The notes beneath the pieces were generated by a model. It was not told where the DNA came from. It was given only the letters and a program-made list of their open reading frames with translations, and did no database searches. A program made the position numbers and the translations under genes. 64,000 nucleotides of DNA from Chrysophaeum taylorii. Its lineage: Eukaryota > Sar > Pelagophyceae > Pelagomonadales > Pelagomonadaceae. The first letter of the stretch is position 1, and the number at the start of each line of letters is the position of its first letter. The stretch is from contig JAQMWT010000333.1 of NCBI GenBank assembly GCA_029834535.1, positions 25,830-89,829 on the forward strand, written 5' to 3'. Shown in pieces: positions 9,664 to 56,572 of the stretch.

Positions 9664-12600
9664 TTAACTATCTTGTTGAGCTATGGGTTGTTGTAAGCCG
9701 AGTAACGTGCGAAATCTGCTCAAGAGCGGAGCTCCAAAGGGTTTAGTAAATCCATCGGCGATATTATGGGTACCAGAAACATGATGTAGACGTATACGTT
9801 TTAACTGTACGTAGTCACGAATACGGAACCAGCGTGTGCTGATAGCTTTGGCCTTAGTCGCACTGTCGGGATTGTTGGAAAGATGAATAGCAGAGGCAGA
9901 ATCTCCCAGTATAGGACTGTTACGTATGAACGACATGTCCGATGGGAGGGGATTGTCGTGAGCATCATAATCTAGTAGCAAGTCTTTCCCTGAAGGTTGG
10001 CGGAGATAGAAGTGAGGATTTATAGCGAATGCCATTTCTGTTAACAATTTGCGTAACCAGACCACATCATCGGCACACATATTAAGGGCGATAAGTTCAC
10101 TCTCATGCGTAGAAGTAGCTGTAATAGGCTGCAACTTAGACTTCCAAGTAATGAGAGAACCAAACAAAAAGATAGCGTAACCGGTTGTAGATTTGCGGTC
10201 TTGTTCATAAGAGGGTGCATTATCGGCATCTACGAACGCGACCAGTGGATCAAAATTACCTGAATTAACTTGTTCTTTAGTGTAATCCAACATGGTGGCC
10301 ATGTCAGTACGATTACCGATAAGAAGTCGAAGATGGTCCATTAGAGCGGAAGAACCAGAGTAGTACCAGAGGCGAAGATTACGATTTTCGGGCTTGCGCA
10401 AGTAGCGGAGCGTTCCTGTTAGTACTTGAACATGTAGAAATGCTGGATTATGCATTCCTCGAGAGCAACGACTAAGACTTTGTGATAGATCGGGGCGACA
10501 GGCCAATTGGACAAACGTGAGCTTGCCGAGTAGAGTAGAGAAGGTATGGAGGATGAACTTGTCCATATCCGAAGATGGCTCTCCAGTTTTATACGTGGTT
10601 GATGGTGACATCGGTGTGGAAGTGGGACGTAACTGCATTAAAATGGGGTACTCTTCGAACAATGCATCAAGTTTAGCCTGACAGTCCAGTGATATAGAAC
10701 CATCAGTTGTACGCGTTATGCGCATGCCTAGGAGAGTATGGACTTCCTCGAAGGTGTCGACTGAGTATTCCTTTTTCAGGGCTTGCTGGAACTCACGACG
10801 TAGAGTTTCCGAAGTGCAAGTAATGACGACGTCGTCTACTGAGAGTGTGCAAATTAGAAATGTAGCGTCAGCTTGGACTTTAGCGTAAATGCATGTGTCT
10901 GTTCGAAATCGTGTATAGCCTAATGAATCAAAGAAGCCGTTTATGGTTTGATTCCAAAGGGCAGGGCTCTGACGTAATCCATAGAGAGATTTAAGTAGCT
11001 TTGGGAGACGACGGCCTTGGTATTTAGTATCTTCGGGATCGAGAAGGTAAATGCCTTGTGGCAGTTTGACATAGACATGAGAATCGATGGGAGCTTGAAC
11101 AAAAGCGTTAGGGACGTCGACATGGTAGACTGGAAGTCGCAGATGAGCTGCTAGCGCCAGAACACAACGGATGCCAGTAAGCTGTGCCATAGGGCTGAAT
11201 GTGTTGAAAAAATCGGTGCCCAGAGAGGCTAAGAATCCTCGTAGGACCAGGCGTGCTTTATGTTTAATGTACTGACCAGCAGCGTTGGTTTTTATACGTA
11301 GGACGAGGCGGGTGTCAATAGGCTTTGAGTTGACCATTGGCAGCGCTAGTTTAAAGCAGCCAAACTTAACAATATCAAAAATCTCCTTGGAGATGGCAGC
11401 AACATAAGCTTTGCGATCAGCGTCTGAGAGACCTTTGAGGCAGTTCAACTCATATTCATCAATTTTGATATCTTTGGCTTGAATCTTGTATTCGTCCGAA
11501 CCAACCGTGCTGGGGTCATGAGTCGTCGTCAGATGAGTAATTGCGTAAGAAGCGACATTATCGTGCAGATGAGCGTGATCGGGATCTTCGACGAGTTGAA
11601 CAACTAGTAGAGGAGCATCACCAAGGTGGGCCTCAATGTAATGCGATTGCACGGTGATATAGTCTTCGATGGCGGAGAGATGAGGCTCGGAGGCACCATA
11701 AGAAGCATCATTATGATCCAAAATGGAGTGGGGCGTGAACAAAGCATAAACATATTGAGCGGGAGGAACTTGAAAGGCGTGAGCATGTTCAGAAATTAAA
11801 TGAACGAGAGCTCGAGGAAGGTGAAAGTCTGCAAGGTTGACGTCGTCGCAGAAGTGAACATGAGGAGCATCAGGCGATGGGTGGCTATGGCTCCTATGAC
11901 ACATAACTGAAGAGGACTGTGAAATCGCTTGGTGCACATGGTGATGAAGGGATGGTGTAAATTCCCCCTCTGGAGGTATAGCCGTCCAGTGGATGCCATG
12001 AGCAAGATGAAGGGAGTGGAGGGTGGGGTCGCAGAAAGTTATGTACTGCTTGGAGAGGTCATACTTGAAGTCGGCAAGCGTACCACCGGCTTGTTTATAA
12101 GCGGCAACAGTAGGCGAGGCAATACGAGTAAGAACATCCTTGAGATTGGTTTTGCGACGAGGCTGAGGGTGATGAGGACCACGGGTGAGACGGAGGACAT
12201 CCTGGGAATAGAGAGACCGATAAGATGGGAGAAGTGGCAGAGTGTCAGAAGACACTTCAGATGTAGGTGTGGTGGCGGAAGTAGCGGGTGCAGAAGCAGC
12301 TGGAGCACATGCGGGAGCGGGAGAGGGAGCATGGAGATGAGTAGAAGGAGTCCCCCTCTCATGGTCAGTGTCTGTAGGCATAGCATTCCCCCTATGCGCC
12401 GCATCATTGGGGGTGCTGTGAACAGAGAAGGGAATGTCGGGTGAAGGTGCGGGAGGTGGATGCTGTTCATAATCGGGAGAAGATTTAGAAATAAGATGAG
12501 GAAAAGTCAGTTTAGAGGAAACACGGACTTGACCATTTTCGGGATTGAGGACAACATCGGCTAAATGATCAACGTGAGGTGTTATTAAAGGGTTTATAAC

Positions 12601-13227
12601 GTTAGCACCACATAAGTAGATATAGGGACGACATCGAGGTTCATATTTATGAAATTCGTTAGGTTCCAAACGCAGATAACAAACAGCACCAAAAGGTTTG
12701 AGGTAGTCCTGTTGGGGAACATTACATTGGTCTAACAAAACTTGTTGGGGGGTGAGGACTTTATTATAAATACGTTCGAGGGAAACGTTAGGGAGGAGAT
12801 TATACGATTGGATGGCATGTATAACAGCCCACGGGTAGTGTGGTGCCGGATCTGTTAGGGGGTGACCTTTATAGGATACATTAAGCATATGCCGGAGTCG
12901 TGTAGACGCGGCAGTGGCTATGTGACCAACAGCGGCTTCGACTTCATGATTAAAGACATGTAAGTAAGGGGGGAACGCGGACATATTAATACCATGTTCC
13001 ACACGAAAGGGGGTTGTAACATGCTGAGATAAATAGGGTTTAAAGGAATCACAATAGATTTGTTTTAGTTGTACATGAACATAAGTAGAGCAAAAATTGC
13101 GGACAAACTCAAGGGCGTTACAAAATTCGCTGGAGTTAGTGCTACGACAAAAGTACACTAACAGAAATTTAGAAATGAGACACTTGAAAACAATGATATG
13201 TCGAAAGGATCCCCATTCCGAGAGCAC
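9664..13227 (-). pseudogene. pol: Copia-1 Pol: integrase core, reverse transcriptase, RNase H
   Basis: 1187 residues. Residues 1-180 are the integrase core after its first Asp: CDSFKPYLSQH carries the second Asp and HEVEAAVGH the Glu. A long Pro/Ser/His linker follows. RT runs from about residue 610 with IDTRLVLRIKTNAAGQYIKHKARLVLRGF, VDVPNAFVQAPID, LKSLYGLRQSPALWN, and the catalytic box SVDDVVIT near residue 795, where Ser replaces the usual Tyr. RNase H (about 995-1140) has VDADNAPSYEQDRKSTTGYA and THESELIAL. The first integrase Asp (WACDGG, about 13237-13254) lies upstream in another frame, behind a stop codon, so the polyprotein is interrupted. Confidence 0.9.
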
Positions 13228-14179
13228 AGATACGTAACCACCGTCACATGCCCAGGCTTCACCAGGTTAAAAATTATTTTCGAACGATGGTTGCTTGGTA
13301 AGGTGATGTGGATGAGGAAAGCGTTTTTTTATGAATCGTACAATCCACACAGAACTTACGGTAGGGCACGTCAGATGGGTGGTGTCCAGGACTGGCAATA
13401 ACCTGAACAGCTTTTATAGCTTGAGAATCACTAGAATGGTGGATGTTGTGAAAATTGGTGGCTCGTTGTTGCGCATCTCGAAATGCAAGGGTGCCTCTGG
13501 CATAGACTTTCTTATCGAAGGGCGCATGCTTCTCATGGAGCTGTCTTGGCGTTATAAGAGGAATTTGTTTTTCTTTAGTAGGAGATGATGTATCTGCGGA
13601 TGAGGTGTTAGAGAGGAAGACATGAGCTACTGAATCGAGATGAAAAGATGGAAGTTCGTGGTTAGAGGCAGGATTATCACAACATGAAAGTTTTTTATTG
13701 GAGATGTAGAACATTGCAATGGAACTCTGGTGTAATAATAAGGATGTATCTGTTGGGAATATATTTGTGAAGAAAGTTGACCTATAGTTTTTGGTTAGAG
13801 AGGCATGATCAGGGTCAAACGATGGTGATAGCATTAATTTACGCAAGTCATAGACAAGCTGACACAAATGTTTGTAAATTATATGATATGTTCCAGCTGG
13901 AATAGCATTCGCGATTATATCACAACATAGGTCCGGGGACAAAGACAGAAGAAAATTGATTTGGTGCGCTGTAAAGTTATTGGCGCGTGCCAATTCGCGA
14001 GTTGAGTAGTGTCGGATGCGATCGAGTCGTGGATCGTACACGAGCATATTAGCAAATCCACGAATGGTAGGAGTAGGAGTGTATATAGAATGAACTTTGG
14101 CACCCATCTTCCTATCGCTTGATGTAATAAAGCCCAGATATCTGCTTTGGGACAGATGCATGTCACTTAAAGCAAACAT
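13228..14179 (-). pseudogene. pol: Copia-1 Pol: pre-integrase region and integrase zinc-binding domain
   Basis: The frame 13274-14179 encodes the region before the integrase core. It includes LSQSRYLGFITSSDRKMGAK, shared with copia-2 and copia-3, and a His-His-Cys-Cys zinc-binding arrangement ending YRKFCVDCTIHKK. A TAA and a frame change around 13262-13276 separate it from WACDGG and the rest of integrase. In Ty1/copia elements this domain binds cDNA ends. Relative to copia-2, two to three repeats of the upstream segment precede it (14172-15474). Confidence 0.75.
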
Positions 14180-15474
14180 TTTATCGATAAATTCGAGACG
14201 ATTTTCCTGAGGGTAGAAGACAAGAGAATCGTGAAATACAGGAGAAGTATAGGTGACCAGTGCTTGTACTACACGACGCGTGTCTTGATTTTCATTATTA
14301 TGATGGTATGCTTGGCATAGCCAAAGAAAAGCAGTAACAGGTTCGAGAGAAGCAGTCTTATCGATTCCGGCATCATGTGTTAGGAAGGTATAGGTTTCAC
14401 CAATAGCATTTATATGTGCCTGGTATTTAGAAAAGGAGTTAGAAACTGTTGTGTCTCCGCCTGTATGTCTTCCACCGGTGATGTAAATGATGGAGCCTAT
14501 GAGATGGTTGGTTAGATTCTATAGTTGTAATACGAAAGGACACAGGCGCGTCCATAATATTATAGAGGAGCACGAAAGCTTTGAGTTCGCTCATGCAAGC
14601 AAGTGGTTTTCTTGAATTAGTCAAGAATCCCAGGCGAGTTAGGACAAATACGATTTTCCTGAGGGTAGAAGACAAGAGAATCGTGAAATACAGGAGAAGT
14701 ATAGGTGACCAGTGCGACGCGTGTCTTGATGATGGTATGCTTGGCCAAGCAGTAACCGAGAGAAGCAGTCCGATATCCACTGTGGTACTGTTGTGTCTCG
14801 CCTGTATGGGTCCTATGAGCTGTAATACGCGGTAATGTGGTGGATTTGGCGAGGAGCACGAAAGCTTTGAGTTCGATAGGGGATCTCATGCAAGCAAGTG
14901 GTTTTCTTGAATTAGTCAAGAATCCCAGGCGAAAGTTAGAAAACATTTTATCGACAAATTCGAGACGATTTTCCTGAGGGTAGAAGACAAGAGAATCGTG
15001 AAATACAGGAGAAGTATAGGTGACCAGTGCTTGTACTACACGACGCGTGTCTTGATTTTCATTATTATGATGGTATGCTTGGCATAGCCAAAGAAAAGCA
15101 GTAACAGGTTCGAGAGAAGCAGTCTTATCGATTCCGGCATCATGTGTTAGGAAGGTATAGGTTTCACCAATAGCATTTATATGTGCCTGGTATTTAGAAA
15201 AGGAGTTAGAAACTGTTGTGTCTCCGCCTGTATGTCTTCCACCGGTGATGTAAATGATGGAGGAAGAAGAGGATTTATTTAAAAATATCCTATGAGATGG
15301 TTGGTTAGATTCTATAGTTGTAATACGAAAGGACACAGGTAATGTGATGGATTTGGGGAATAAGCGTCCCATAATATTATAGAGGAGCACGAAAGCTTTG
15401 AGTTCAATAGGGGATCTCATGCAAGCAAGTGGTTTTCTTGAATTAGTCAAGAATCCCAGGCGAAAGTTAGAAAT
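14172..15474 (-). repeat. Three tandem copies of a pol segment; the middle copy shrunken
   Basis: A segment beginning GATTTTCCTGAGGGTAGAAG and ending near CAAGAATCCCAGGCGA occurs at about 14172-14632, 14640-14935 and 14935-15474. The third copy is the fullest (about 540 bp). The first lacks a few short blocks. The middle copy is near-identical where present but has lost at least ten short blocks of 4 to about 60 bases. All lie in the methyltransferase-to-integrase interval, so the protein is partly triplicated and then frameshifted. Confidence 0.8.
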
Positions 15475-16344
15475 GCCCTCCATTTCATCTTGACTGGGAT
15501 GTTCGACTGTTTTATTAGAGTGCAGACGAAGGAACAGCATAGTTAAGGTTTCAAGCTCAGTCACAGTTAAGCGCACGGATCCTGTACGACTGAAAATATT
15601 GTAGGTTTTAGGTGTGGACACGAATGGTATGTCAGGAAAGACCTGCGTCCAAGGTTCGTCGACTATTAACTTGCGACTGATGGAATTAGCGTGGTCTGCA
15701 ATGTCCAGAAAGGAAGTGACTCGTTTATTAGGCCATGAAAGCAGATCAAGAGGGCCGGTGTTATATTTACGTGCAACGAGGATCCATCTTTCTCTGGCTT
15801 GATAATCTCCACATAGATAGCATGGAAATCGGTCACATATATCCACCGTATAGTGCATCGTTGAGAAGATGAGATTAGCAACTCGTATATGATCTTCATA
15901 CGATGCGGAGTGTGGTGGTGTCATTTCCATGAAAAGAACAAGCGGCTTTAAAAGCTCAAGTACACTTAGAGCACTTGGAAACAAGGAATCATCCATATCA
16001 CGCTCGAAGGTGGAAATGGATCTCCCATTGATTATGTTGCGATTTGTGCATGGTGATGTCAATTCCACTATATCGGTGTAATATCGTGCACGTTCAACGT
16101 CCGATGCTCGATGGAGATATGTCAGAAACTTAGGTAGGGATGGGAAAACTTCGATGGAATTACCAAAACGTCTTCGTAGCATGTGCGTGATATTGTCGTC
16201 GCTCTCAACAAGAACTTTAACGTTGATGTTGATTTGCAAGTCATTAGAAGCACAAGCCAAGAATGCAGGAGTGGACATCCCAGAGCAAAGTAGAGTTACA
16301 GTAGGTGTTCGTGGGCTAGGAGATGAAGTTACTGTATGAAGCAA
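14617..16344 (-). pseudogene. Copia-1 cytosine-5 DNA methyltransferase-like domain plus duplicated pol segment
   Basis: 575 residues. Residues about 14-325 follow the motif order of C5 DNA methyltransferases. Motif I is VTLLCSGMSTPAFL (16-29), with the acidic residue E47 after it. Motif IV is DIVELTSPCTNRN with the catalytic-position Cys99. Motif VI is LVLFMEMTPP, where Glu140 is kept but Asn-Val of ENV is replaced. Motif VIII is GDYQARERWILVA (Q182, R184, R186). A motif IX-like VRLTVTELETL follows. Motif X (GNxV) is not evident. Such enzymes transfer a methyl group from S-adenosylmethionine to cytosine C5. The domain lies between protease and integrase of the element. Residues after about 330 are the duplicated pre-integrase segment. 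Copia-3 has the same domain. Confidence 0.75.
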
Positions 16345-16362
16345 ACGTGTGGTAACCTTGCG

Positions 16363-18951
16363 TCATACGGGAGGTGGGAAATGCTTGCGTATGTAAGGCA
16401 GCTGCGAATGCATTGACTCCAGGATGGTTTTAAGCCATGGGACGTAAATTACTCGTTCCATGAGGGTGGAATATAGTTTGAGCATTTCGCGTTGTTCATT
16501 AAAAGCACATAGTCTGAACTGTAGTGAGCGAAGTTCCATTTTACGCGCTTTTGCTTGTTGTAGCGAATAACTTGGTAGAGTTGGCAAGAGGTTACTGAGT
16601 CTAAACAAAGTAATCTTGACATTATCACCAATTTTACTCTGGATAGATGATTGTCCTTTAAATTCAACTCCATAAAGATGTATACCTAGTTTATCTTCTC
16701 CCCATTGAGTCATGCTGATGATGTGCAGATCGGGATCGTTATGATCGTTTTGCTTGGGTAGAAAAAGCGCAACGTCTAGCTTTACATATCCCACATTTGG
16801 ATGCTTTGGGAGAGCGGGAATGACGGTCCTTATAATCATAGCATGTGTGATTCTCTGCGTATCCGTAGCAGTCTGGATAGCAGGTGATAAGGACTCGGGT
16901 AGCTTTGCGATGTGGATAGGATCAGCGTAACGTTGAAAGTCAATTACATGTCGAGAAGCACATGTGTCAGCATATCCTGGCGTAGTCATTGGCGGCAAAT
17001 TGTACTCGTTGTACAGTTTAAGCATTGTTGCATAACAGGCATGTGTTGAGCTTTGACCAAACACGTACTGTGTCATGAAACTTTGCGTTTGTTCGGAAGG
17101 CACAACGACGAGTGTAAAACCAGTGTTTAATTTTGGTAGCAACACAGGGGGATCTGTACCATCTTCATTATCTTCATTGGGTAGATTACTGGGGAGCTCA
17201 GAGTGCGAGGAAGTTTCCCGAGCTTGACGACGAACGATAGCATTCTGAGCTTTAGCATTTATGTGCTGCAATAGCGGCTGAGGGATGTTATCGATTTCAT
17301 CATCTTTAATGGACAGAAAAGTGTGGAACATTTTCTCTGTATCAGCAGTCCCCCTCTGCTCCGCATCACTGGGGGACGCTTCAGGAGCAGATGTTTCAGT
17401 TTGATACTTTTCTTCTGAAACAAGAGATTCCTTATCGGCTTCTAAGAGGTTCGATATGGTATTGGACATAGTATCAACTCGAGATAAGTAGAGATGAACT
17501 TGGGTGGCTTCATCAGGATCTAAGGACTGTGTCGAAGCTTGAGAAGCGGTTGTCCAGAGGGTACTCAGTAAGCTTTTCATTTCCTCCTGTACCATTTTAG
17601 AGTCGGTAGAGGGGTTGGGATTCGCTTCCTGTAATTTACCAAACAGGTGGCGAAGACGATCAACTTGATAAGTAGCCCGGTCCATAAGAGACATATTAGA
17701 GCGTGCATTACGGTTAGAGGAAGGTGAGTAGACAGGACGATCGAAGCTGGTACCTTTGACGTTATAATTTGAAGGTGGACGATAGTACGACGTGTCACGA
17801 GGTAAAATTGTCGATGCTTTGTCTTTTGCATTACGAAGCTTACGAGCGTTGAAGCCAGACTGTCCAGCTACAGTAGCTAACAACGAGTAAGCGTTGTTTA
17901 GAGAGTCGTGGGATTGATGAATAGTATCCATCAATAATACCTTAGGTGGCTTGGTAGCGGTAGTACCAGGGATGTAAGGGATCCAGGAAGCGGGTTTCTT
18001 AGGATCAACTAGTTTTAACAATTCAGGATCGTGAATCGAGTTGTTCCCAGAGCGTGTCTCGTAGAGTTTACACCATTCCAATAAAGATTGAGAATAGCGC
18101 TCGTGATCCGAGGGATTAGCATATAGACGGTAGATCTCCTCGTGAGCTTTAAGAGTGATTATGGAGTTATTAAATTGGATTGATGCTTCATCATTATTTA
18201 ATTGCTTTGCCTGAGATTGGAAAGCAAGGAGTTGTTCGACAAATACATGGGCATACCAATTAACATTTAAAGACATTCGATTAAACTGAGATTTAAGCTC
18301 AGTAACATCTGTACAAGACACTGTCTCATAGTAATGGTAAGCTAAAAGCATTACTGCACGTAGTTTATTAGGATGTGCAGTAAGTGCATATATATTCTTT
18401 AATTGAGGCCACATAGCGAGTGCTGGTTTGTCTTGTGATTCCAAGTTAAAAAATGTGTACAAGAAACCAGCATAAGTTTCGCAGTGTTTGATCCAGTCGG
18501 TATTAGAGAGACCTGTAAAGGATATGTTAGTTAGAGAAGAATCATACACAATTGATTTAGGGAATCGGGTATCTAATAGATCAAGGGCATGTTCAACATC
18601 CTCATTTAATTCGGGACGAACGACATTATAGGACTCTTGGTAATAAAGTTGTTCGAGATTGTTACGGACATCGACTGTCAGTTGATGTGATGAATTGACA
18701 TGCCAGGTTTTAAAATGATCTGGCAGGGCATCTTCATCAGGTAAGTTTAAATCGATTACTTGTTCAGCTTTCCATCGAGCGAAGATAATATCAACTTCTT
18801 GTTCAAGAAGTTGATTATACTCCGGAGCATTCCGGGTGTAAGCTTCATGTGAATCGAAGCAGAATAACGCGTCCACACATGGACTTGTCATATGCCTGCG
18901 AAGCATCTCAATTTGCAAGCTCACCTTGGTTGAGTTGTCTTGGAAACGCAA
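16363..18951 (-). CDS. gag: Copia-1 Gag-protease polyprotein
   Basis: One open frame of 862 residues, the best-preserved frame of this element. The first about 330 residues are a Gag capsid-like helical region, clearly related to copia-2 Gag (shared blocks such as TFFNLESQDKPALAMWPQ and NVNWYAHVFVEQLLAFQ). A Ser/Thr/Asn-rich and coiled-coil middle follows. The protease lies at about 640-770, with active-site box YADTCASRH near residue 660, where Cys stands in place of the usual Gly of D-S/T-G-A. No CCHC knuckle was found. The start at 18951 is the first Met of the frame; conserved sequence may begin slightly upstream. It ends 19 bp before the methyltransferase frame. Confidence 0.8.
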   Translation of the reverse strand: MRFQDNSTKVSLQIEMLRRHMTSPCVDALFCFDSHEAYTRNAPEYNQLLEQEVDIIFARWKAEQVIDLNLPDEDALPDHFKTWHVNSSHQLTVDVRNNLEQLYYQESYNVVRPELNEDVEHALDLLDTRFPKSIVYDSSLTNISFTGLSNTDWIKHCETYAGFLYTFFNLESQDKPALAMWPQLKNIYALTAHPNKLRAVMLLAYHYYETVSCTDVTELKSQFNRMSLNVNWYAHVFVEQLLAFQSQAKQLNNDEASIQFNNSIITLKAHEEIYRLYANPSDHERYSQSLLEWCKLYETRSGNNSIHDPELLKLVDPKKPASWIPYIPGTTATKPPKVLLMDTIHQSHDSLNNAYSLLATVAGQSGFNARKLRNAKDKASTILPRDTSYYRPPSNYNVKGTSFDRPVYSPSSNRNARSNMSLMDRATYQVDRLRHLFGKLQEANPNPSTDSKMVQEEMKSLLSTLWTTASQASTQSLDPDEATQVHLYLSRVDTMSNTISNLLEADKESLVSEEKYQTETSAPEASPSDAEQRGTADTEKMFHTFLSIKDDEIDNIPQPLLQHINAKAQNAIVRRQARETSSHSELPSNLPNEDNEDGTDPPVLLPKLNTGFTLVVVPSEQTQSFMTQYVFGQSSTHACYATMLKLYNEYNLPPMTTPGYADTCASRHVIDFQRYADPIHIAKLPESLSPAIQTATDTQRITHAMIIRTVIPALPKHPNVGYVKLDVALFLPKQNDHNDPDLHIISMTQWGEDKLGIHLYGVEFKGQSSIQSKIGDNVKITLFRLSNLLPTLPSYSLQQAKARKMELRSLQFRLCAFNEQREMLKLYSTLMERVIYVPWLKTILESMHSQLPYIRKHFPPPV

Positions 18952-19530: not shown

Positions 19531-19844
19531 TGCAGAACATTAGCAAGCAGTGGTAAGTCACCTTGGAAACCATCCCGTCTCATCATGAACGTCTGGAAGT
19601 ATTTAATTCGGGGAATGAAAAGGTATGTTCCCTATATCCTCAGAACACGACAGGCGGCATCTAGAACTACACGAGAAAGGTAAAGTGTATAGTGCTACAT
19701 ACCTCGGGACGCGCTAGACCATGATGATGAGCGTAGGCACAAATCAGAGGACTATTTGATTGTGTAGAAAGGAAGAAGAAGGGTAAGGAAGAGATCACGT
19801 TCTCAACGGACGGATAAGGGTAAGAGGCAGCAGATTTCTCTGCA
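19531..19844 (-). repeat. Copia-2 3' LTR
   Basis: 314 bp, bounded by TGCAGAACAT and TCTCTGCA on the plus strand. It is nearly identical to 28824-29136 and closely related to the copia-3 LTRs. In sense orientation it follows the polypurine tract at 19845-19853. Confidence 0.95.
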
Positions 19845-19853
19845 CCCCCTCGA
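19845..19853 (-). other. Copia-2 polypurine tract
   Basis: Minus strand TCGAGGGGG directly upstream of the 3' LTR, matching the tract of copia-3 (52393-52401) and the core of the copia-1 tract. Confidence 0.8.
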
Positions 19854-20074
19854 GATGTCTTAAGCGCAAGGTGCGACTGTAGAGCATCTCTTGAGAAAGA
19901 TGATGATGAAGAAAAAAGAGGGAATACAGTCTTGATGGTCACAGAGGTCACATACGAAGCATCAAGAGTATAGAAGGGTCTTAGGACTTGGACTTGGTGG
20001 AGCTGAGAGTCGATTTGACCCTTTTGAACAGAACATTAAGAAACACAGATACAACAGACAGTGTGTTAGGATTA

Positions 20075-21540
20075 TCAATCATCGTCAGCTTCTGCTGTAA
20101 GGTGGTGAACACCAATAGCTGAATGATGTGGTGCCAAGAGAAGGGTGAGTGCAAGTAGAGCATTCAGTATGGATGGCGACAGAGAATCTAGTTGAAAGGT
20201 GTCCAGTTGGTTTTCCAAAAAAGGTTGGACTTGGCGAACGAAGATAGAAGAGTCTTCAGATTCACATGAGAGCGGACGGAATGCTCTGAAGCATGAGAGC
20301 AACTTGTCACGTAGATGAAGGAGGTGATCGTCCGGGGAGGAGTGGTTGGCAGCATGTTGGTCATGAGCGGTGAGTGTTAAGCGAGACAACAGCTCTGTGA
20401 TCTTGTACAGTGTATAAGTAACACGTGGGTGTTGGCTGTAGGAGGGAAGAGCCGGTTCTCCAGGGAGGTGATTGAAGCAATGGCAGCCTCGGTAATATAG
20501 ATTCGAAGAGTTTCCTGGAGTTGGTCGACTTGTTGGCACAAGACGTCGAAATCAGCAAGCGAAGCAGAAGACGTAGGTAACGATGGCGAAGATATCTCCA
20601 GAGTAGCGTCTAGCGTGGAGTGTGAGTAGTTTAACGACGTTTCGGTCAACGTTAAAAAAGGGGTGCAGGAAGCCTTAATGTTCTGCCTGAGCATAAGTGT
20701 GGCCGAACATTACATCCCGGAGTGATAGCGGTTCTGTATCATCAGAGGATGATGCGTAGTCGTCAAGATGTTGTACACGCGATCGAGCAACAGTAGTAAT
20801 CAAATGCTGAATGGATGGCTTGTATAGCCTGAGCTGTGCGACTCTGTGTTCGAACACGAGTCACAAGTAAACTGATCGGTGTTGTGATAATGGGGATGTG
20901 ACCATTCTTCTTATGGTCGTCCGTGTTGAGGTGACTCAGCACTTCAGTGGGGAGTTCACGAGGTGTTTGTGCCTTGGAACTGTACGTGGTCGAGACTAGG
21001 AAAGTCGGTTGTCCACGATCATTGAGGCACTGCGCAAAAAAAGGAAAGCGACAAAATGAAACGTTCGCGTTTGGGGCATCTGTAGCAGCCAATAGAAGCA
21101 ATAGCAGGAGCAGCTTCCCAAAGTATAGTAATGGGTAAGCGCATGGATATGAATGTGGTCAGGTCTACAAACAATGAAAAGTCAGTAGACTCATAGGTCA
21201 GTGTGAGTTCCACTCGCATAAAAGAAGAGAGAAATGGGGTGACAGGGACACGGAAGTTCTCAAGGAGAGAGATTCCTCGCTCGTAAGCAGCATAGTCAAT
21301 ACTGAGGCCGTCCTGGAACGTCGTCAGCGACTGAGGTGAGATATGCACGGCTAGTGTCGGTGCAAACGCAGCAGCCAGTGTGGTAGCAGTTGTAGCAGTC
21401 ATGGTTCGTTGCTTTTGCGACAACCTGGGGGAAGGTTCGGCCGTGGAGAGCGAGAAAGGACTGTCCTTCAACCGACTAGTGAGATGCCGCGGCCACGGGA
21501 GTGTCAAGAAAAGACATGAACAACACTCGCCCGCGTACAA
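20075..21540 (-). pseudogene. Copia-2 third ORF, fragmented
   Basis: Overlapping minus frames (20075-20539, 20377-20694, 20763-21101, 21019-21540) together match the frames at 52514-54077 in copia-3. They share a Thr/Ala-rich start, VAHISPQSL-like strands, the LTETSLNY block, a leucine-rich helical stretch (DFDVLCQQVDQLQETLRIYI) and a C-terminal HSAIGVHHLTAEADDD. Frameshifts separate the pieces. Relative to copia-3, blocks are missing around 20520 and in the N-terminal part. The likely product is a coiled-coil protein of unknown function encoded after RNase H. Confidence 0.55.
20629..20647 (+). repeat. 19-nt dispersed motif, copia-2 copy 1
   Basis: GTTTAACGACGTTTCGGTC. One of five copies in copia-2, each with a counterpart at the same relative place in copia-3 (53279-53297 for this one). 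Confidence 0.85.
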
Positions 21541-21574
21541 AAATTTGTGGCAAAAGAAGGTAAGGCCAGGGCTA

Positions 21575-21593
21575 GTTTAACGACGTTGCGGTC
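21575..21593 (+). repeat. 19-nt dispersed motif, copia-2 copy 2
   Basis: GTTTAACGACGTTGCGGTC, just after the RNase H stop. The copia-3 counterpart is 54038-54056. Confidence 0.85.
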
Positions 21594-21714
21594 ACTAGAG
21601 TTAGGCATCTTCAATCCTGTAAAGGCTTGTCGTCAGAAGCATGATGCATACCGAGTAGAGAACGAAAAGTGGAGAACTCAGCAGCAAGTGGCTTTGTAAA
21701 ACCATCCGCCACGT

Positions 21715-24228
21715 TCAGCTTGCCGGGAACATGATGGACTCGTATTTTCTGTAGCGAGATGTACTCACGGATTTAAACCATCTGGTCGACAGTGCCTTGG
21801 ATCGAGAGGACCCATCTGGGTTATTAGAGGTGTGAACAGCGGCAGCATTGTCAGACAAGAGAGGTAGGCTTCTGATGAAGCGCATATCTTCAGCAATTGG
21901 GTTGTCATTGTCATCGAAGTCAACAGGGTCAGCGGTGTTCTCACCATTAGCATTGTTGACGTAGAAGGTGGGGTTGACGACAAAGGAGAGTTCCAACAGC
22001 AGCTTGCGTAGCCAAACAGCTTCATCAGCACAAATACTGAGGGCAATCAACTCAGCTTCGTGAGTTGAGCAGGAGACGATCGGTTGAAGTTCGCTTTTCC
22101 AACCAATAAGGCAGTTGAAAAGATAGAAGACAAACCCGGTGGTAGATTTCCTATCTTCCTGTGCTAAGGAAGGGGCGTTGTCAGCGTCAACCATGGCAAC
22201 TAAGGGGTCAAACTGTCCAGTAGATACATCCTGCGGTTGGTAGTCGACCACAGTGGATAGATCAATTCGATTAGCGGAGACAGTGCGAAGGTGAGCTTCA
22301 ATGGCATTACCTTTAGGATGGAACCAGAGGCGAAGTGAGCGGTTTTCCGGCTTCTTGAGGTAGCGAAGCAAATGCTCTAGCATTTGGACGTGAACATACG
22401 TGGGTGCATGCATACCACGCGAACATCTGCCCAAGGCTTGCGAGAAGTCAGGTCTGCAGGCAACTTGCATGAACACCAGCTTGCCAAGGAGGGTGGCAAA
22501 GTGCGAATTGATGTACAACTCTGTTTCAGAGCTGGGAGTGCCATCTTTATACTTGAAGGACGATGACATAGGATATTTAAGCGGGGTCAGTTGCTGCAAG
22601 ACTGGGTGATCAGCGAAGAGTTCATCCAGCTTGGCTTGCACATCCAGAGAAATGGAACCGTCAGATGTGCGACACACACGCATGCCTAGGAGGGTATGGA
22701 CAGGTTCAAACTGCTCTACAGCATACCGTTTGTGGAGGGCATCCTGTAACTCAGTACGAAGAGGGTCGTCATTGGACACAATAACAATGTCGTCTACAGA
22801 CAGACTGCATACGACGAACTTAGCATGTGCGGATACTCGAGCATATAGGCAAGAGTCCGAATGCAGGCGTTTGTAGCCAAGGCTACGGAAGAAGCCGTCT
22901 ATCTCTTTGTTCCAAAGAGATGGTGATTGCCGAAGTCCATAAAGTGACTTCAGCAGTTTCGGTAGACGTCGGCCCTTGTACTTAGCGTCATCGGGGTCGA
23001 TAAGCTTGATGCCGTCTGGTAACTGAACATAGACGTTGGCATCAATGTCAGACTGAACGAAGGCGTTCGGGACGTCTGCATGGTAGACAGGCAATTGCTT
23101 GTATGCTGCAATAGCTAGTAGTACCCGGATTGCGGTCATTGTGGCCATGGGGCTGAAGGTGCCAAAGAAATCGGCGCCAAGAGATGCTAGGAAGCCACGT
23201 AGCACGAGGCGAGCCTTGTGCTTAACGTATTTGCCTGCAGAGTCTGTTTTAATCTTCAGCACCATCTTGCTGTCAATAGGACGAGAGACACCGTCGGGTA
23301 AGGAAAGTTTGAAGCAGCCAAAGCGGATAATGTCGTGGAGTTCCTTGGCGATGGCCTTGAGGTAGGCGTGCCTGTTTTCAGGCGACAAACCGTGGAGGCA
23401 CTTAAGTTTATATTCGTCAATGGAAACGTCCGCTTCTTGGACCTTATATTCGTCAGGACCAACAATGGCTGGTGAATTATAGTTTAGCGACGTTGCGGTC
23501 GAGGCAGTGTGCGCAACTTCGGGATAAGCGGAAACAGCGTCAGTAGGAGTAGGAGAAGCAGATTCCAGTTGAATATGGATAGTAGGGTCGGTGTGTAAGA
23601 CCTGGGTGATAAACTCTGTAGAGACCAGAAGGTATTCCTCCAAGTCAGCCAGAGATGCAGAAGTAGCGCCAAACTCGGAGGAGTTGTGATCAATAAAGCT
23701 GGTCGGCGCCAGGTACGTAAGTGCATATTGTAAGGAAGAAGTGCCAAAGGCAGCAGCGTGTTCAGTGAACGCAGATAAAAGGGGCTGAGGAATGGGACAC
23801 GTAGGTGAACCATCAGCAGTTAGAAAGGCTGCAGCTGGGATGCTGGATGCGCACTTGGCGTGGGCGAAGTAACCATCGACGTGCGGGTAGCGGGCAAGTA
23901 AGTCAGTGCGCAACGGGAGAAGAAGACGAGCTAACAACGCATGTCCCCCCTCTGAGCAGATAGCAGACCAGAGGATACCAGTGAGATGAAGGTCGGAGAG
24001 GGCGGGAGACTGGAACGTAAGAAAGTGGTGGCGAAGATCCCAGCGGAAATCGGCGAGTTTGCCACCAGCGGCTTTGTAAGCACCAATAGTAGACGCTTGT
24101 AACCGGGCTCGAATAGTTTTCATAGAAGTGGCCTTGCGGGTGTTAGGCTGTTTGGAACCTGGGACAATAATGAGGTCATCTTGTGCAAAAAGGTCTTTGT
24201 AAGAAGGAAGCAAGGGCGGCGGTGACAT
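21715..24228 (-). CDS. pol: Copia-2 Pol: linker, reverse transcriptase, RNase H
   Basis: An 837-residue open frame. The N-terminal part is the Pro/Ala-rich integrase-RT linker. RT begins near residue 290 with IDEYKLKCLHGLSPENRHAY, then VLKIKTDSAGKYVKHKARLV, HADVPNAFVQSDID, LLKSLYGLRQSPSLWN, and catalytic SVDDIVIV near 476 (Ser for Tyr, as in copia-1). RNase H starts about residue 675: MVDADNAPSLAQEDRKSTTG, WKSELQPIVSCSTHEAELIAL and LLSDNAAAVHTSNNPDGSSR. The last residues after about 825 are out of phase because of a 1-nt change near 21775, judged by comparison with copia-3, which keeps the normal end (REYISLQKIRVHHVPGK). The enzyme synthesises element cDNA and removes RNA. Confidence 0.9.
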   Translation of the reverse strand: MSPPPLLPSYKDLFAQDDLIIVPGSKQPNTRKATSMKTIRARLQASTIGAYKAAGGKLADFRWDLRHHFLTFQSPALSDLHLTGILWSAICSEGGHALLARLLLPLRTDLLARYPHVDGYFAHAKCASSIPAAAFLTADGSPTCPIPQPLLSAFTEHAAAFGTSSLQYALTYLAPTSFIDHNSSEFGATSASLADLEEYLLVSTEFITQVLHTDPTIHIQLESASPTPTDAVSAYPEVAHTASTATSLNYNSPAIVGPDEYKVQEADVSIDEYKLKCLHGLSPENRHAYLKAIAKELHDIIRFGCFKLSLPDGVSRPIDSKMVLKIKTDSAGKYVKHKARLVLRGFLASLGADFFGTFSPMATMTAIRVLLAIAAYKQLPVYHADVPNAFVQSDIDANVYVQLPDGIKLIDPDDAKYKGRRLPKLLKSLYGLRQSPSLWNKEIDGFFRSLGYKRLHSDSCLYARVSAHAKFVVCSLSVDDIVIVSNDDPLRTELQDALHKRYAVEQFEPVHTLLGMRVCRTSDGSISLDVQAKLDELFADHPVLQQLTPLKYPMSSSFKYKDGTPSSETELYINSHFATLLGKLVFMQVACRPDFSQALGRCSRGMHAPTYVHVQMLEHLLRYLKKPENRSLRLWFHPKGNAIEAHLRTVSANRIDLSTVVDYQPQDVSTGQFDPLVAMVDADNAPSLAQEDRKSTTGFVFYLFNCLIGWKSELQPIVSCSTHEAELIALSICADEAVWLRKLLLELSFVVNPTFYVNNANGENTADPVDFDDNDNPIAEDMRFIRSLPLLSDNAAAVHTSNNPDGSSRSKALSTRWFKSVSTSRYRKYESIMFPAS
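23482..23500 (+). repeat. 19-nt dispersed motif, copia-2 copy 3
   Basis: GTTTAGCGACGTTGCGGTC (one mismatch), inside the linker-RT frame, where it encodes TATSLNY. The counterpart is 55906-55924 in copia-3. Copia-1 has a shorter, unrelated stretch here. Confidence 0.85.
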
Positions 24229-24845
24229 AGAGCCAGAATCGTCGGCGATAGCGTAAGAAGAGGGAGAAGAGGCCGGAGTAGGGGACGAAGAAGGAGCTGA
24301 AGGAGGTGGGGAGTGCTGAGTTGGTTGTAGAGTAGCTGTTGCGGACTCAGAAAAGCATGATGAATGCGCTCGAGCGTGGCGTTCGGGAGAAGGTTATAGC
24401 TTTTAACGGTGTGTATCACCGCCCATGGGAACATGATAGCGGGTTCCACGATCTTGGCGCCACGATAGTGAGCATTAAGGAGAGATCGAAGGCGAGTTGA
24501 GGAGGCGGATGCGATGAAGCCGATGGCAGACTCAACTTCAAAGTTAAAGTGGTGCATGTACGGCGGGAAGGCAATGAGTTGAATGCCCTTATCGACGCGG
24601 TACGGGGAGGTAATGTGCTGGCTAAAGTAGGGCTTGAAGGCATCAGAGTAGAGGGTGCGCATGTGCACGTTGAGTTGTGTACGACAAAAGTCATACACAA
24701 AATCCAGAGCCTGAGTGAACTCCGTGGCGTTGGTGGTGCGTGTAAAGTACACCAATATAAATTTCGAGACAAGTTCTTTTTTGAACACAATAATATGTGT
24801 GAAGCCTCCCCATTCTGATGGAATTGTCTCATGCCGCCGTCGCAC
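24120..24845 (-). pseudogene. pol: Copia-2 Pol: integrase core
   Basis: 241 residues overlapping both the upstream 592-residue frame and the downstream RT frame. It contains the integrase strand IIVFKKELVSKFILVYFTR, the second catalytic Asp in LYSDAFKPYFSQH, the Glu in HHFNFEVESAIGFI, and the terminal helix LLPNATLERIHHAFLSPQQL. After residue about 180 the frame is out of phase. A deletion of about 0.4-0.5 kb relative to copia-3 removed the integrase C-terminal part around 24320, so the enzyme is not intact. Confidence 0.8.
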
Positions 24846-26194
24846 GCCCAGACTTCGCCGGCTTTGTGAGTTTGCTCAAAAGAAGGCTTGGTCGCATTGA
24901 AATGCTTGTGCGGGTGGCGCTTGTTGTGTGCGATGCAGTCGGTGCATAAGTCGCGATATGGTATGTCAGAAGCAGAGAATCCAGGGCGAGCAAGTACGTT
25001 GGGGGCCTTGGCAGCGACGTTGTCGGGGCAGTGGTGCACCCGGTTGAAGCGACTGGCACGTTCTTTGGCATTGAGATATTCGGTGGATCCGTGTGCGAGG
25101 GACTTACGAGGAATTGGATGAGCGGGAATATGTCGTTTGCGCCGAACATCGAACTTGAGTTCGGTGTCTAAGGCAGGGGAAGGCGGTGCGTCGTCATCCT
25201 GGTGCGCAGCAGGGTCACTTGGAGGTGCATCCTCATCATCACGAGTAACGAGAGTATCTTCGTAGGACGAAGATATATAGTTTAACGACATTTCGGTCAA
25301 GCAGTTGCTGGAAATAGACATCATAAAAGCTTGTGCCAAAGACAAGGTATCTGTGCTGCACGTGGTGGAAGCTTGATCAACGGTCATGAAATTGGATACA
25401 TAGGATTTCTTAGTCACGGCAGCAGTATGTTGGAAGGTAGGGTCCAACATAAGGGATTTAATATCGGCAACGAGGAGCGAGAGGTGCTTGTACAGAGTAC
25501 TGTACGTGCCGGCAGGCAAAGCATTGCTGAGCATGTCACAGCAAAGGTCATGGCGTAGAGACAGGAGGAAGGATTCCTGTTGTTTGGTGTGGTTGTTAGC
25601 ACGAATCAACTCCGGTCGAGTGGGGTAGCGTAATTTCCCGTTGCGGGGGTCGAGTAAGATTATATTGGCGTACCCTCGGACGGTGGGCAATGGAGCATGC
25701 ATGGAGTGGATTTTAGAGCCGAGTTTGCGGTCACTTCCACGAAGGTACCCTATATAGCGACTATGAGATAAGTGGTGGTCTTCCAGAGCAAAATGAGAGT
25801 CCTTGTAGTCGAAAGAGTTGGCGGTGGCCTTGTAGGTAAGGCAGCCAGGCATCACAAGAGAGCATCTGGACAAGAGCTTTTGTATGGCGGTGCCATAGGT
25901 GGCAGCGGAGCCAACTTGGGGAAGGGCTTGGACTATCCACAAATAACCCATAAACGGCTCCAAATATATGGACCTGTCGCGGTCGCGGGGAATGTCGGAA
26001 GCAGTGAACGTATACGTGCTTCCAAACGCGTCAATAGAAGCATGATATTTGGTGGTGGCGTTCTCTATGGTGAGGTTGCCGTCAGAGTGGTGACCACCAG
26101 TTAAGAAGTGGGAGTTGTATGATGTTGATGAGGTTGTGAGTAGTAACCTGTGTGACGGTTGGTTGGTTTCGAAAACGGTTAGATAATAGGACAC
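24846..26194 (-). pseudogene. pol: Copia-2 Pol: pre-integrase region and zinc-binding domain
   Basis: The N-terminal about 450 residues of a 592-residue frame (24416-26194). Block SHSRYIGYLRGSDRKLGSK matches copia-1. The zinc site runs HHCPDNVAAKAPNVLARPGF to YRDLCTDCIAHNKRHPHK. GEVWACDGG holds the first catalytic Asp of integrase, just before a frameshift at about 24830-24840. The start MSYYLTVFETNQPSHRLL is the residual end of the deleted methyltransferase-to-integrase interval, not a natural start. Its upstream neighbour gag overlaps it in another frame as a result of the deletion. Confidence 0.8.
25280..25298 (+). repeat. 19-nt dispersed motif, copia-2 copy 4
   Basis: GTTTAACGACATTTCGGTC, encoding LTEMSLNY on the minus strand in the pre-integrase region. 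The counterpart is 58064-58082 in copia-3. The block is absent from the equivalent place of copia-1. Confidence 0.85.
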
Positions 26195-28392
26195 AGGAGT
26201 GGGTGAGTTAGTGTGAAGAAGTTCTCCAGCAATAACAGGTTCGTTGGAATGATGATCGGTTGAACCGGTGGTGATGGTTCGTAAGCCTCAACAGCCATGC
26301 CGTGCTTTTCATCAAATGACGATAGCGAAGTATGATCGGCATCCCTTTTGGTTTCGGCTTGTGATGGTAGGTTGAGGGCAGATTGGGCCTGTGAAGATAG
26401 CGAGGACAATAACGCTGGTGGTAAAGCCGAGATGGCGGAAGCGGTAAAAAGGTTAGGCACGGTATTGGAAGGATTACCCTGTGTGTTTGTAGTAGAGGAA
26501 GTTGTTGCCTTTGGGGTGGGAGCAGTAACAACAGTATGGTGTTGTGGCTCCACGTAGTTTAACGACTTTTCGGTCGAGGATAGATGAACGTCTACATCAC
26601 AAATGATGTCTTCTGCAAACATGAGCTGTTCGTTTAGACGAAGTAAACTACTGTTGTCCTCAGTAGATGTCGTTGACAGAATGTCAGCTGATTGTAATAG
26701 AGTCTCAAATAACTTGTTGATATTCTGTTGTAGCTGAGCCGTGGTATCATTATCTGTCACATGCTTCGTAAGTTCACTACACTGTTCTCGCAGGGTGTTT
26801 AAGGTGTGATTTGTTCGATCTAATAATTTCATGTTAGACCGAGAGGACCTGTCAAAAGTGCGGGGGTAAATTGGACGGTCATGGGACTGTCCAGCAGTTT
26901 TCTTGGTGATGTAAGAATCACCAGAACGATAATACGATAAATCGATGCGAGAGAAAGGCTGGCGAGCATCATTAGAGTTAGAGTCATTAGAGTTACGCAA
27001 GCGTCTAGCATTAAACGTGGAAGATGTACCAGGTTGAGACGAAGTGATGAAGGCGAGTGTGTTAGCAGTTTGAGTCGGACTTTTGTCTGCTGAATCCCGA
27101 GAGTTTGTAAGTAGTAACTTTGGCTTTGGTTGAGATGATAAACCTTCGACATAGGGTTGCCAAGAAACAGGGCGTTCTAAGCGTCTTTTGTTCGACCCAT
27201 TTGATACTACACTACATAAGTCTAATGCGCATTCTAAAATGTAGCTAGGGTTGATAGGGTGACACAATCGTTCAGCTTCTGGCACAGGCCGAGATGAAGT
27301 TCGGGTTTCATACATATAACACCAATCTACCCAACCACGATCGTAACGATTGTTGCTGGTATTATCGGCATAATGCCGATGTATCTCTTCATATATTTTT
27401 ATACAAAGAGTGCCAAAGTCGAATTGAAGGTCAGTCTCTTCCTGGTTAAGTTGGTAAGAGATTTGCCTAAATGCTAGGACAGCTTCGATAAATACATGGA
27501 CATACCAGTTAGGATTATAAACAACAGAGTTAAATTGCTGTTTCAAATAGGACACATCAGTAGTCGTAACAGACTCGTAGTGACTAAAGGCGATGAGCAT
27601 AATGGCTCGAGCCTTGTTGGGTAAATAACTTTTGTTATATACCTCATTGATGGCGGGCCAGGCCGCAAGTGCTGGTTTTCCAACACTTTCGAGATTGAAG
27701 TAAGTATGGAAGAATGTAGCATACGTGTTCTGATGAGTGTGCCAGTCAGCAGCAGTTAACGAAAACATAGTAACAGGGGCACGAACACGGGTGTCGAAAG
27801 CTAATGCCTTCGGGTGCGCGCGATTTAAGATTCGTTCCTCTTCTAAGAAACGGGCATTGATTTCAGGACGTAAAGCCTCGACTTCATAGTCGTAACAGAC
27901 AGTAGCTAGCTGAGCTACTCCTGCATCAGGTAAGTGGGGGAAAGCTTCGTTGGTGAAATGCCATTCCTGATACTCAGGGGGCAGTTCATCAACAGCTAAA
28001 CGGAGATCAGCAGCGCTATCGGTCTTCCATTCCAGGAAAACGCGATCGAGAATTTGATTCCGGAGGATCTCGTAGTCCTTGCATGACCGAGTATATGCTT
28101 CGTACGAGTCGTACTCGAGGAAGGCATCGGCATGACTGGACCGTAACAATTGCTTAATGTGCTTGATTTGCAAGGATACCTTGCGAGTCTGAAGCTGAAA
28201 TCGATTTCCATCGTTAAGAAACTCAACTACAGGAGCTTCTAGCTTCAATACATCCGCACCTGTGATCGCCTTGGGTGCGGCTCGTGCTGCGTGTTCTGCC
28301 GTAGCAGTTGACGGGGAACCTGTGGGTTCAGTCACGCAGTTGACACTGTCTAGACATTCTAAGGGGGTCTGTCTATCGGTGTCTATGTACAC
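26179..28392 (-). CDS. gag: Copia-2 Gag, truncated before the protease
   Basis: A 737-residue open frame. Residues about 45-385 form the Gag core, homologous to copia-1 (RKVSLQIKHIKQLLRSSHAD, TYFNLESVGKPALAAWP, YNPNWYVHVFIEAVLAFRQ). Next come a basic Ser/Arg/Tyr-rich segment and a leucine-rich segment (LDRTNHTLNTLREQCSELTK) likely to form a coiled coil. A Pro/Thr-rich tail ends LLLENFFTLTHPLL. In copia-3 the protease follows LLENFFT directly; here a deletion fuses the tail to a point about 1.7 kb downstream and the frame stops within about ten codons. Gag would package RNA into virus-like particles. Confidence 0.85.
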   Translation of the reverse strand: MYIDTDRQTPLECLDSVNCVTEPTGSPSTATAEHAARAAPKAITGADVLKLEAPVVEFLNDGNRFQLQTRKVSLQIKHIKQLLRSSHADAFLEYDSYEAYTRSCKDYEILRNQILDRVFLEWKTDSAADLRLAVDELPPEYQEWHFTNEAFPHLPDAGVAQLATVCYDYEVEALRPEINARFLEEERILNRAHPKALAFDTRVRAPVTMFSLTAADWHTHQNTYATFFHTYFNLESVGKPALAAWPAINEVYNKSYLPNKARAIMLIAFSHYESVTTTDVSYLKQQFNSVVYNPNWYVHVFIEAVLAFRQISYQLNQEETDLQFDFGTLCIKIYEEIHRHYADNTSNNRYDRGWVDWCYMYETRTSSRPVPEAERLCHPINPSYILECALDLCSVVSNGSNKRRLERPVSWQPYVEGLSSQPKPKLLLTNSRDSADKSPTQTANTLAFITSSQPGTSSTFNARRLRNSNDSNSNDARQPFSRIDLSYYRSGDSYITKKTAGQSHDRPIYPRTFDRSSRSNMKLLDRTNHTLNTLREQCSELTKHVTDNDTTAQLQQNINKLFETLLQSADILSTTSTEDNSSLLRLNEQLMFAEDIICDVDVHLSSTEKSLNYVEPQHHTVVTAPTPKATTSSTTNTQGNPSNTVPNLFTASAISALPPALLSSLSSQAQSALNLPSQAETKRDADHTSLSSFDEKHGMAVEAYEPSPPVQPIIIPTNLLLLENFFTLTHPLLCPII
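26557..26575 (+). repeat. 19-nt dispersed motif, copia-2 copy 5
   Basis: GTTTAACGACTTTTCGGTC, encoding STEKSLNY in Gag. The counterpart is 61072-61090 in copia-3. Confidence 0.85.
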
Positions 28393-28809
28393 TCATCGTT
28401 TTCGATGGAAAGATGTCTATTTGACGACTGTGCAAGCTGTGAGTCCAGAGTAGTGTCGCTAAGCGTAGTCACTCAGGCAGCTGGTTAGTTTTGGTGCTCT
28501 CAAGGAGCTTGTTAAGTGCATTGCCATGGAATGTACGAGTGGACGTACCCAAAATATTCCATAACATGTGTGCAAGAGTACAGGTTAGCCAATTACACAC
28601 ACATCAACATTGACATGACAATACGATACTATGAACAGGTGCACACAAGGTTACACGATCACGTGTGCAAAAAAGTATTATATACAGCCCAATAGTAATG
28701 GCGTTGTATTTACAAGTGTGTTTACGTGTCGAGGCTGAGACGGCGCGGTAACGGCCCAATACCCATAGGTTACGTGCGCGTTTTAACACATGGTTTCTCA
28801 GGGACCCGC
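28393..28809 (-). other. Copia-2 leader between primer-binding site and gag
   Basis: About 417 bp, closely matching 62755-63289 of copia-3 (for example GGTTACACGATCACGTGTGCAAAA near 28651). It contains the palindrome CACGTG. No ORF is shared; it is the untranslated leader, expected to hold packaging signals. Confidence 0.6.
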
Positions 28810-28823
28810 CTGGGCCCATAACC
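28810..28823 (-). other. Copia-2 primer-binding site (half-tRNA initiator Met type)
   Basis: The plus strand reads CTGGGCCCATAACC immediately outside the 5' LTR. This equals the anticodon arm of initiator tRNA-Met (anticodon CAT in the loop), so the genomic RNA carries its complement. It is the arrangement known from Drosophila copia, which is primed by a cleaved initiator tRNA half. Confidence 0.85.
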
Positions 28824-47482: not shown

Positions 47483-47483
47483 G

Positions 47484-53278: not shown

Positions 53279-53297
53279 GTTTAACGACGTTTCGGTC
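53279..53297 (+). repeat. 19-nt dispersed motif, copia-3 copy 1
   Basis: GTTTAACGACGTTTCGGTC, in the third ORF (encodes TETSLNY). Confidence 0.85.
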
Positions 53298-54056: not shown

Positions 54057-54073
54057 ACTAGGGTTAGGCATCT

Positions 54074-56553: not shown

Positions 56554-56572
56554 GGAGGTTGCCTTGCGGTTG

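Follow-up and report, generated by a model that had tools for sequence, protein, structure and literature searches.

Ty1/copia retrotransposons of Chrysophaeum taylorii with a divergent C5-cytosine methyltransferase domain in pol, conserved among genomic copies and preceded by a conserved stop codon

We analysed a window of 64,000 nucleotides from the pelagophyte Chrysophaeum taylorii (GenBank assembly GCA_029834535.1, contig JAQMWT010000333.1, positions 25,830 to 89,829), the minus strand of which holds three large Ty1/copia retrotransposons, here called copia-1, copia-2 and copia-3. From sequence comparison it is almost certain that pol of copia-1 and copia-3 includes, between protease and integrase, a divergent C5-cytosine methyltransferase (C5-MTase) domain. 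In copia-1 the gag-protease frame (P0002; 16363..18981, minus strand, as for all element features below) ends at a conserved TGA (16363..16365), which is followed by C and abuts the frame of the MTase and the rest of pol. P0002 has no Pfam protease match, and its protease-like motif, DTCASRH (16948-16968), was read by eye. The C5-MTase domain occupies 13870..16362 and is broken in this copy by stops and by a tandem duplication in its spacer (14171..15262, with 14171-14495 matching 14938-15262 at 99.4% identity). After gag-protease the frames run from 16362 to 14617, from 14518 to 13274 and then, with integrase, reverse transcriptase (RT) and RNase H, from 13266 to 9664. This last part of pol (9664..13384 as a whole) begins with a zinc-finger-like motif read by eye at 13384-13340, and the integrase core starts at 13266. 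In a Pfam scan of P0004, RVT_2 was matched over residues 645-873 (E 4.8e-42) and the integrase core, rve, weakly (E 0.023). No pair of long terminal repeats (LTRs) was detected for copia-1 within the window.

The whole of copia-3 lies at 52080..63618, between LTRs (52080-52392 and 63304-63618) that are 95.9% identical. Its conserved TGA (60005..60007) is followed here by ATG, and its C5-MTase domain (58290..60004) is frameshifted internally, so both window copies of the MTase are broken. Between the two elements lies copia-2 (19531..29136; LTRs 19531-19844 and 28824-29136, 98.1% identical), in which the protease and MTase motifs I-VIII have been deleted and the later part, with motifs IX (25630-25589) and X (25531-25508), is retained. 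Membership of Ty1/copia is borne out by an RVT_2-type RT 3' of the integrase and by the LTRs flanking copia-2 and copia-3. The deletion junction of copia-2 (26213-26215) was found in no other scored copy, despite the near identity of its LTRs. We considered copia-2 as a spreading, non-autonomous family lacking the MTase and rejected this, as 39 of 40 scored matches (of 527 candidates) span one side of the junction only.

C5-MTases are recognised by a Pro-Cys in motif IV, a Glu in motif VI, Q-x-R-x-R in motif VIII and a motif X, and all of these are present here in canonical order. In copia-1 they are motif I at 16302-16261 (TVTLLCSGMSTPAF), motif IV with the Cys at 16056-16042 (SPCTN), motif VI at 15933-15913 (FMEMTPP), motif VIII at 15810-15784 (GDYQARERW), motif IX at 14011-13973 (HYSTRELARANNF) and motif X at 13915-13892 (IANAIPAG). 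The corresponding positions in copia-3 are 59950-59912 (I), 59709-59695 (IV), 59586-59566 (VI), 59463-59437 (VIII), 58399-58373 (IX) and 58315-58292 (X). Motifs IX and X of copia-1 and copia-2 were placed by pairing the protein P0015 with L005, an unbroken genomic copy. A first-pass annotation of this DNA had proposed a C5-MTase-like domain common to the Ty1/copia polyproteins of copia-1 and copia-3, and homology through relatives, described below, upholds it. Motifs I, IV, VI and VIII lie where they had been placed, and residue counting agrees exactly with the catalytic Cys codons given for the two elements (16050-16048 and 59703-59701). The domain had also been rightly set between protease and integrase, but it does not end at 15370 and continues to about 13870. 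Accordingly, a block inside 15370-16344 that had been likened to motif IX is not that motif, which lies downstream, and motif X, which had seemed unclear, was found beyond the range then given. The domain is about 595 residues long and takes up most of the interval between protease and integrase. In L005, about 335 residues separate motifs VIII and IX, the place in C5-MTases where the target-recognition region is situated, and a linker of about 130 residues joins the MTase to the integrase zinc finger.

Homology to the C5-MTase family (PF00145) is reached through intermediates. In its first round, a profile search of 5.8 billion proteins, which scored 7,993 candidates, yielded two proteins from marine transcripts: P0009 (41% identical to L005; PF00145 E 4.4e-4, slightly under the cut-off) and P0010 (31% identical to L005, pairwise E 3e-25; PF00145 E 1.2e-10). 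The second round gave 11 proteins, nine of them new (P0011-P0019), and eight of the nine reach the PF00145 gathering score, with P0016 falling short at 20.3 bits. The relatives P0009-P0019 are all transcript or metagenome proteins. One of them, P0015 (617 residues), matches PF00145 in two stretches at E 1.3e-16 and aligns with L005 from motif I through motif X over 572 columns (E 1e-36), which extends the homology over the whole domain. An alignment of 13 sequences, which include 11 proteins from transcripts or metagenomes, has 22 invariant columns, the Cys and the Glu among them, and nine of the 11 relatives read PCQ in motif IV. Because of these invariant columns, and because most relatives pass the PF00145 cut-off, the MTase-like motifs exceed what chance would give. 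In motif VI, ENV had been noted to have become EMT, but this is no sign of decay. EMTPP is found in all of P0009-P0019 (P0011 reads EITPP) and in L082, a related element described below, and EMT is therefore an old feature of the clade.

Copies of the elements are spread through the genome. In a screen of 70.8 Mb in 697 contigs, the copia-1 query gave at least 75 scored places from 1,289 first-look candidates (78 rows) and the copia-3 query at least 117 from 1,148 (120 rows). Conservation was counted at 48 places, leaving out the window copy of copia-1 and three duplicate loci. Cys105 and Glu146 are each kept in 47 of the 48, and Gln188, Arg190 and Arg192 of Q-x-R-x-R in every one. The Asn and Pro of motif X are kept in all 37 copies readable there, the other 11 being unreadable at that point.

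Ratios of nonsynonymous to synonymous divergence (dN/dS, pooled pairwise) were taken from copies with a frame of at least 400 residues starting at the junction of stop and MTase. For the core from motif I to motif VIII, dN/dS is 0.071 among 23 copia-1-type copies (253 pairs) and 0.096 among 11 copia-3-type copies (55 pairs); a diverged copy, L065, gives 0.031 against the other 22. Read in the wrong frames, the same alignments give 1.18 and 2.57 (copia-1) and 1.76 and 2.18 (copia-3), a contrast that is robust even with non-independent pairs. Within the same five copies the ratio is 0.098 for the core and 0.177 for the integrase, which, given that non-independence and the choice of copies by their similarity in this region, is indicative only. 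Since the core ratios of 0.07-0.10 stand against values above 1 in the wrong frames, the MTase is maintained by selection rather than decaying, and on this measure natural selection is preserving it nearly unchanged in many copies.

The MTase frame is preceded directly by a stop triplet in all 46 copies read, and in 45 of them it is TGA. Copia-1-type copies have it in 31 of 31 (30 TGA, and one TAA in L027), and copia-3-type copies have TGA in 15 of 15. Among the copia-1-type copies, L006 has its frame shifted ahead of the stop. A further copy, L073, no longer has the site, and L074 and L076 were left out of this reading. The base after the stop is C in all 31 copia-1-type copies and in five of the 15 copia-3-type copies. 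UGA-C is a leaky stop context. In the downstream frame of copia-1 the first Met is residue 29, behind the Gly of motif I, and a fresh start there would therefore lose this cofactor motif; the other five aligned copia-1-type copies also have no Met earlier than that. Synonymous divergence around the TGA does not dip at the stop itself; it is low at codons 21-57, from one lineage comparison, and we draw nothing from this. Readthrough-type gag-pol elements have a stop that is conserved at the end of gag-protease and a remainder of pol that evolves under purifying selection, and this is the arrangement seen here. A selected domain behind such a stop is best explained by readthrough that would set the ratio of gag-protease to MTase-pol, and it is likely, given the copies compared, that ribosomes occasionally read through the TGA.

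The window lineage, family A, is one of several MTase-bearing groups. Of 474 candidates in a PF00145 search of the genome, 123 were scored, and these gave at least 124 rows. The 18 loci L033-L050 all belong to a second copia family, B. Each has a canonical PCQ and all but one have VENV (17 of 18), counts that are favoured by the selection of these copies through their PF00145 match. Two copies of family B match PF00145 at 32.4 and 35.5 bits, RVT_2 was detected at one family B locus (L077), and the same RT sequence was read in L078. Comparison of profiles aligns the A lineage with family B over 498 columns (E 3.3e-19), and B is its nearest match; the poorer alignment of family A alone gives E 0.0022 (probability 12.9). 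A protein search with family B scored 7,997 candidates and had no match at E 0.001, and neither protein nor viral-contig searches found a relative of B outside this genome. Viral contigs were scanned four times with no MTase relative found, leaving a viral origin unsupported.

A further relative, L082, is an ocean contig (NHBR02000125.1) from a prokaryote collection, titled Muricauda sp. TMED12. Its single frame of 2,557 residues, which is open at either end, encodes an MTase (22.5 bits against PF00145, cut-off 22) that matches L005 at E 5e-25, an rve-like integrase (25.2 bits, below cut-off) and an RT (RVT_2, 157.7 bits). L082 is probably a eukaryotic contaminant, and since it is a copia retrotransposon, the Muricauda sp. 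TMED12 metagenome-assembled genome is probably contaminated. The MTase is at the same place as in the window families, with the same EMTPP and motifs IX-X. It differs in its uninterrupted frame without TGA and in having only about 110 residues between motifs VIII and IX. Over 151-165 RT columns (160 for the comparison with the window families), A and L082 are 51-54% identical, A and B 39-45% and B and L082 47%, whereas each is 32-35% identical to the RT of a third copia lineage, which lies at 33.5 kb in the window. A longer cut of 243-255 columns puts B and L082 highest, at 45%, with A and L082 at 41-42%, so the two cuts differ in how they order the group. These values fit joint descent of MTase and RT in the group of A, B and L082.

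Gypsy-type elements in the same genome (L066-L070) carry a different, shorter C5-MTase upstream of the RT, which scores 25.8 bits (L068) and 40 bits (L070) against PF00145. RVT_1 was detected in L079, adjoining L069; reading by eye gave the gypsy order, in which integrase follows RT, and related the other gypsy loci to this one. Neither A (E 0.079) nor B (E 0.78) shows a significant alignment to the gypsy-type MTase, so that a separate capture is likely from these comparisons. Several dozen more PF00145 matches, at profile positions 2-77, resemble the gypsy-type families (L066-L070, L079, L080, L084 and L085 were read).

Two chromosomal C5-MTases were observed. L031 (360 residues) carries a CFT..GTGS stretch, which we take to be typical of Dnmt2. 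L032/L083, a single long frame, matches both PF00145 (65.4 bits) and SNF2 (52.4 bits) and is DNMT5-like, this being the DNMT5 layout described in PMC12344493. The family A profile matches them at E 0.036 (Dnmt2-like) and E 0.0097 (DNMT5-like). C260 and C57, two further candidates for host MTases, were set aside because their MTase proved to be that of the gypsy-type locus L070. The scored candidates included no DNMT1 or DNMT3, an absence made weak by introns and by the ceiling on the number of candidates scored.

The homology, motifs I, IV, VI, VIII, IX and X, the element context, the spread in the genome, the purifying selection and the conserved stop are all read directly from sequence. The explanation that we favour, and hold to be somewhat probable as a whole, is that these are copia elements with a complete, selected C5-MTase encoded in pol, made as a readthrough fusion and borne in the particle to methylate cDNA. 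Readthrough of the TGA would yield a fusion of gag, protease, MTase, integrase and RT, so that particles would contain the MTase, made at the level of pol. There, or in the preintegration complex, the enzyme would methylate cytosines before or during integration, and activity on DNA is fairly probable from the residues conserved. Its likeliest target would be the element's own double-stranded cDNA, although we put this forward as the main substrate only tentatively. With DNMT5-type maintenance methylation present in the host, such methylation would tag new copies as 'self' or adjust their chromatin.

Several observations weigh against this explanation, and some of them concern the fusion. In ten of the 15 copia-3-type copies the base after the stop is A, giving ATG in nine and ATA in one, and TGA-ATG allows reinitiation; ATGA overlaps occur at both window junctions. 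RNA structure after the TGA is not beyond that of shuffles in three 120-nt sequences (z-scores 0.39, 0.22 and -0.50), and L082 lacks a stop at its junction of gag-protease and MTase, which shows that not every member of the lineage has the TGA. The TGA may accordingly not be read through at all, with gag-protease and MTase-pol made as two proteins, by termination-reinitiation or from separate mRNAs, and no fusion needed. We regard this as rather doubtful, as six copia-1-type copies have no in-frame Met before motif I, and the remaining copia-3-type copies read TGA-CTG or TGA-CTA in five cases and TGA-ATA in one.

Others of these observations concern catalysis. PF00145 was unmatched at E up to 1 in P0001, P0003, P0005, L005 and L071 in the Pfam scan, so that the direct profile match of the window domains by which the first-pass annotation would have judged them is absent. 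No MTase is among the matches of the family A profile to solved structures (PDB), and sequence and profile searches of solved structures with families A, P and L082 found no C5-MTase; family B reached C5-MTases there only at E 0.066 and 0.21. Motif I of family A lacks the second Gly (LCSGMS, compared with CHGLG in P0015). Selection is weaker outside the core, with dN/dS of 0.125 and 0.341 in the spacer or target-recognition region and 0.25 (154 pairs) and 0.45 (6 pairs) in motifs IX-X, and the copies were picked by openness and by similarity in the MTase region, which favours low dN there. A footprint of CpG deamination is not clear in the copies either. The ratio of observed to expected CpG is 0.91-0.93 for all three window elements, 1.0 for a family B stretch, 1.08 for a gypsy-type one and 1.16-1.6 for those host-like stretches that were measured. 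Singleton changes are at most slightly more frequent in CpG (C>T 0.098 per site, against 0.079 elsewhere; G>A 0.115 against 0.079), and heavy CG methylation of the copies is thus not seen.

The missing direct matches, the altered motifs I and VI and the unclear footprint would suit an MTase fold kept without catalysis, as a nucleic-acid- or cofactor-binding part of pol that might, for example, aid integrase or RT. Loss of activity with retained fold had also been the alternative offered in the first-pass annotation. It is made unlikely by the near-invariance of Cys, Glu and Q-x-R-x-R over 48 copies, together with the low core dN/dS, by the invariance of Cys and Glu among the 13 aligned sequences, with PCQ in most relatives, and by the age of EMT within the clade. 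The lack of a clear DNA footprint would equally suit RNA as the substrate (genomic RNA or primer tRNA), for instance favouring packaging or priming. DNMT2 and DNMT6 are C5-MTases associated with RNA (PMC12344493), and a DNMT of a Symbiodinium long interspersed nuclear element (LINE), SymbioLINE, gave no DNA methylation in yeast, for which RNA was suggested as substrate in a test that its authors called inconclusive (PMC5890265). Nevertheless, the match of family A to the Dnmt2-like host enzyme is weak beside its match to family B, and the long spacer at the place of DNA target recognition fits DNA equally well, and we hold an RNA substrate to be quite improbable. A lineage-specific extension of pol with coincidentally MTase-like motifs, for which only the negative direct single-sequence searches speak, is refuted by the chain of significant PF00145 matches with all motifs in order, unless those matches are artefacts.

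Capture of MTases by retroelements is already known. PMC5890265 describes captures by LINE, DIRS and gypsy elements, in two lineages, and states that Symbiodinium copia elements, the most abundant retrotransposon class there, are without any DNMT domain. The DNMTs of SymbioDIRS are active in yeast, where they methylate CG de novo, and that study proposes methylation of cDNA (PMC5890265). KnitGypsy-Dnmt3 of Klebsormidium nitens is likewise an LTR element with a C5-MTase inside the pol polyprotein, with key residues kept and under purifying selection (Ka/Ks < 0.2). It differs in its gypsy domain composition and Dnmt3-class enzyme, whereas the window families are Ty1/copia with the MTase between protease and integrase, and have as their own the long spacer before motif IX and EMT in motif VI. 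The gypsy-type loci L066-L070 look closer in backbone to KnitGypsy-Dnmt3, as it is described there, than do the window families. SymbioDIRS-Dnmt3 and SymbioLINE-Dnmt of Symbiodinium resemble the window families as retroelement-encoded DNMTs in many copies under selection, but the former is a DIRS element with a tyrosine recombinase and the latter a LINE (PMC5890265).

No tyrosine recombinase (PF00589) was matched in the C. taylorii genome at E <= 0.001. As the captures in dinoflagellates and charophytes are by LINE, DIRS and gypsy elements, and those of the window are by copia in a genome without a PF00589 match, descent from the same event is disfavoured by these comparisons. One sentence of PMC12344493 (2025) places DNMT3 members in 'LTR Copia' and DIRS elements, citing PMC5890265, which describes gypsy. 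Among the papers listed, our literature search found no account of a copia-MTase lineage.

Elsewhere in the window, a remnant of the third copia lineage (33509-35023, minus strand; RVT_2 E 2e-30) lies near tandem repeats of 53-57 nt at 31.1-32.8 kb. Tandem arrays with alternating 53/54-nt spacing occur at two places, 46759-47498 and 32183-32847. In a GC-richer stretch, a frame of 931 residues at 3395-6187 (minus strand) matches Helitron_like_N weakly (E 1e-4, under the cut-off).

Among the classic defences of hosts against retrotransposons is cytosine methylation. The present data suggest that these elements use for themselves the kind of mark with which hosts often silence them, and they add copia as another retrotransposon class that carries an MTase, here in high copy number and under strong selection. 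Together, the copia MTases, their marine transcript and metagenome relatives and the gypsy-type MTase elements point to a repeated, useful function in the life cycle of LTR elements. In this host, where the DNMT5-like enzyme is the only chromosomal DNA-type MTase found, copia and gypsy retrotransposons could conceivably be the main source of new cytosine methylation, with the DNMT5-like enzyme maintaining it. We think this improbable; if true, the methylome would be seeded by elements and maintained by the host. With its genome of about 71 Mb, C. taylorii offers a small-genome system for asking what a retrotransposon gains from methylating DNA.

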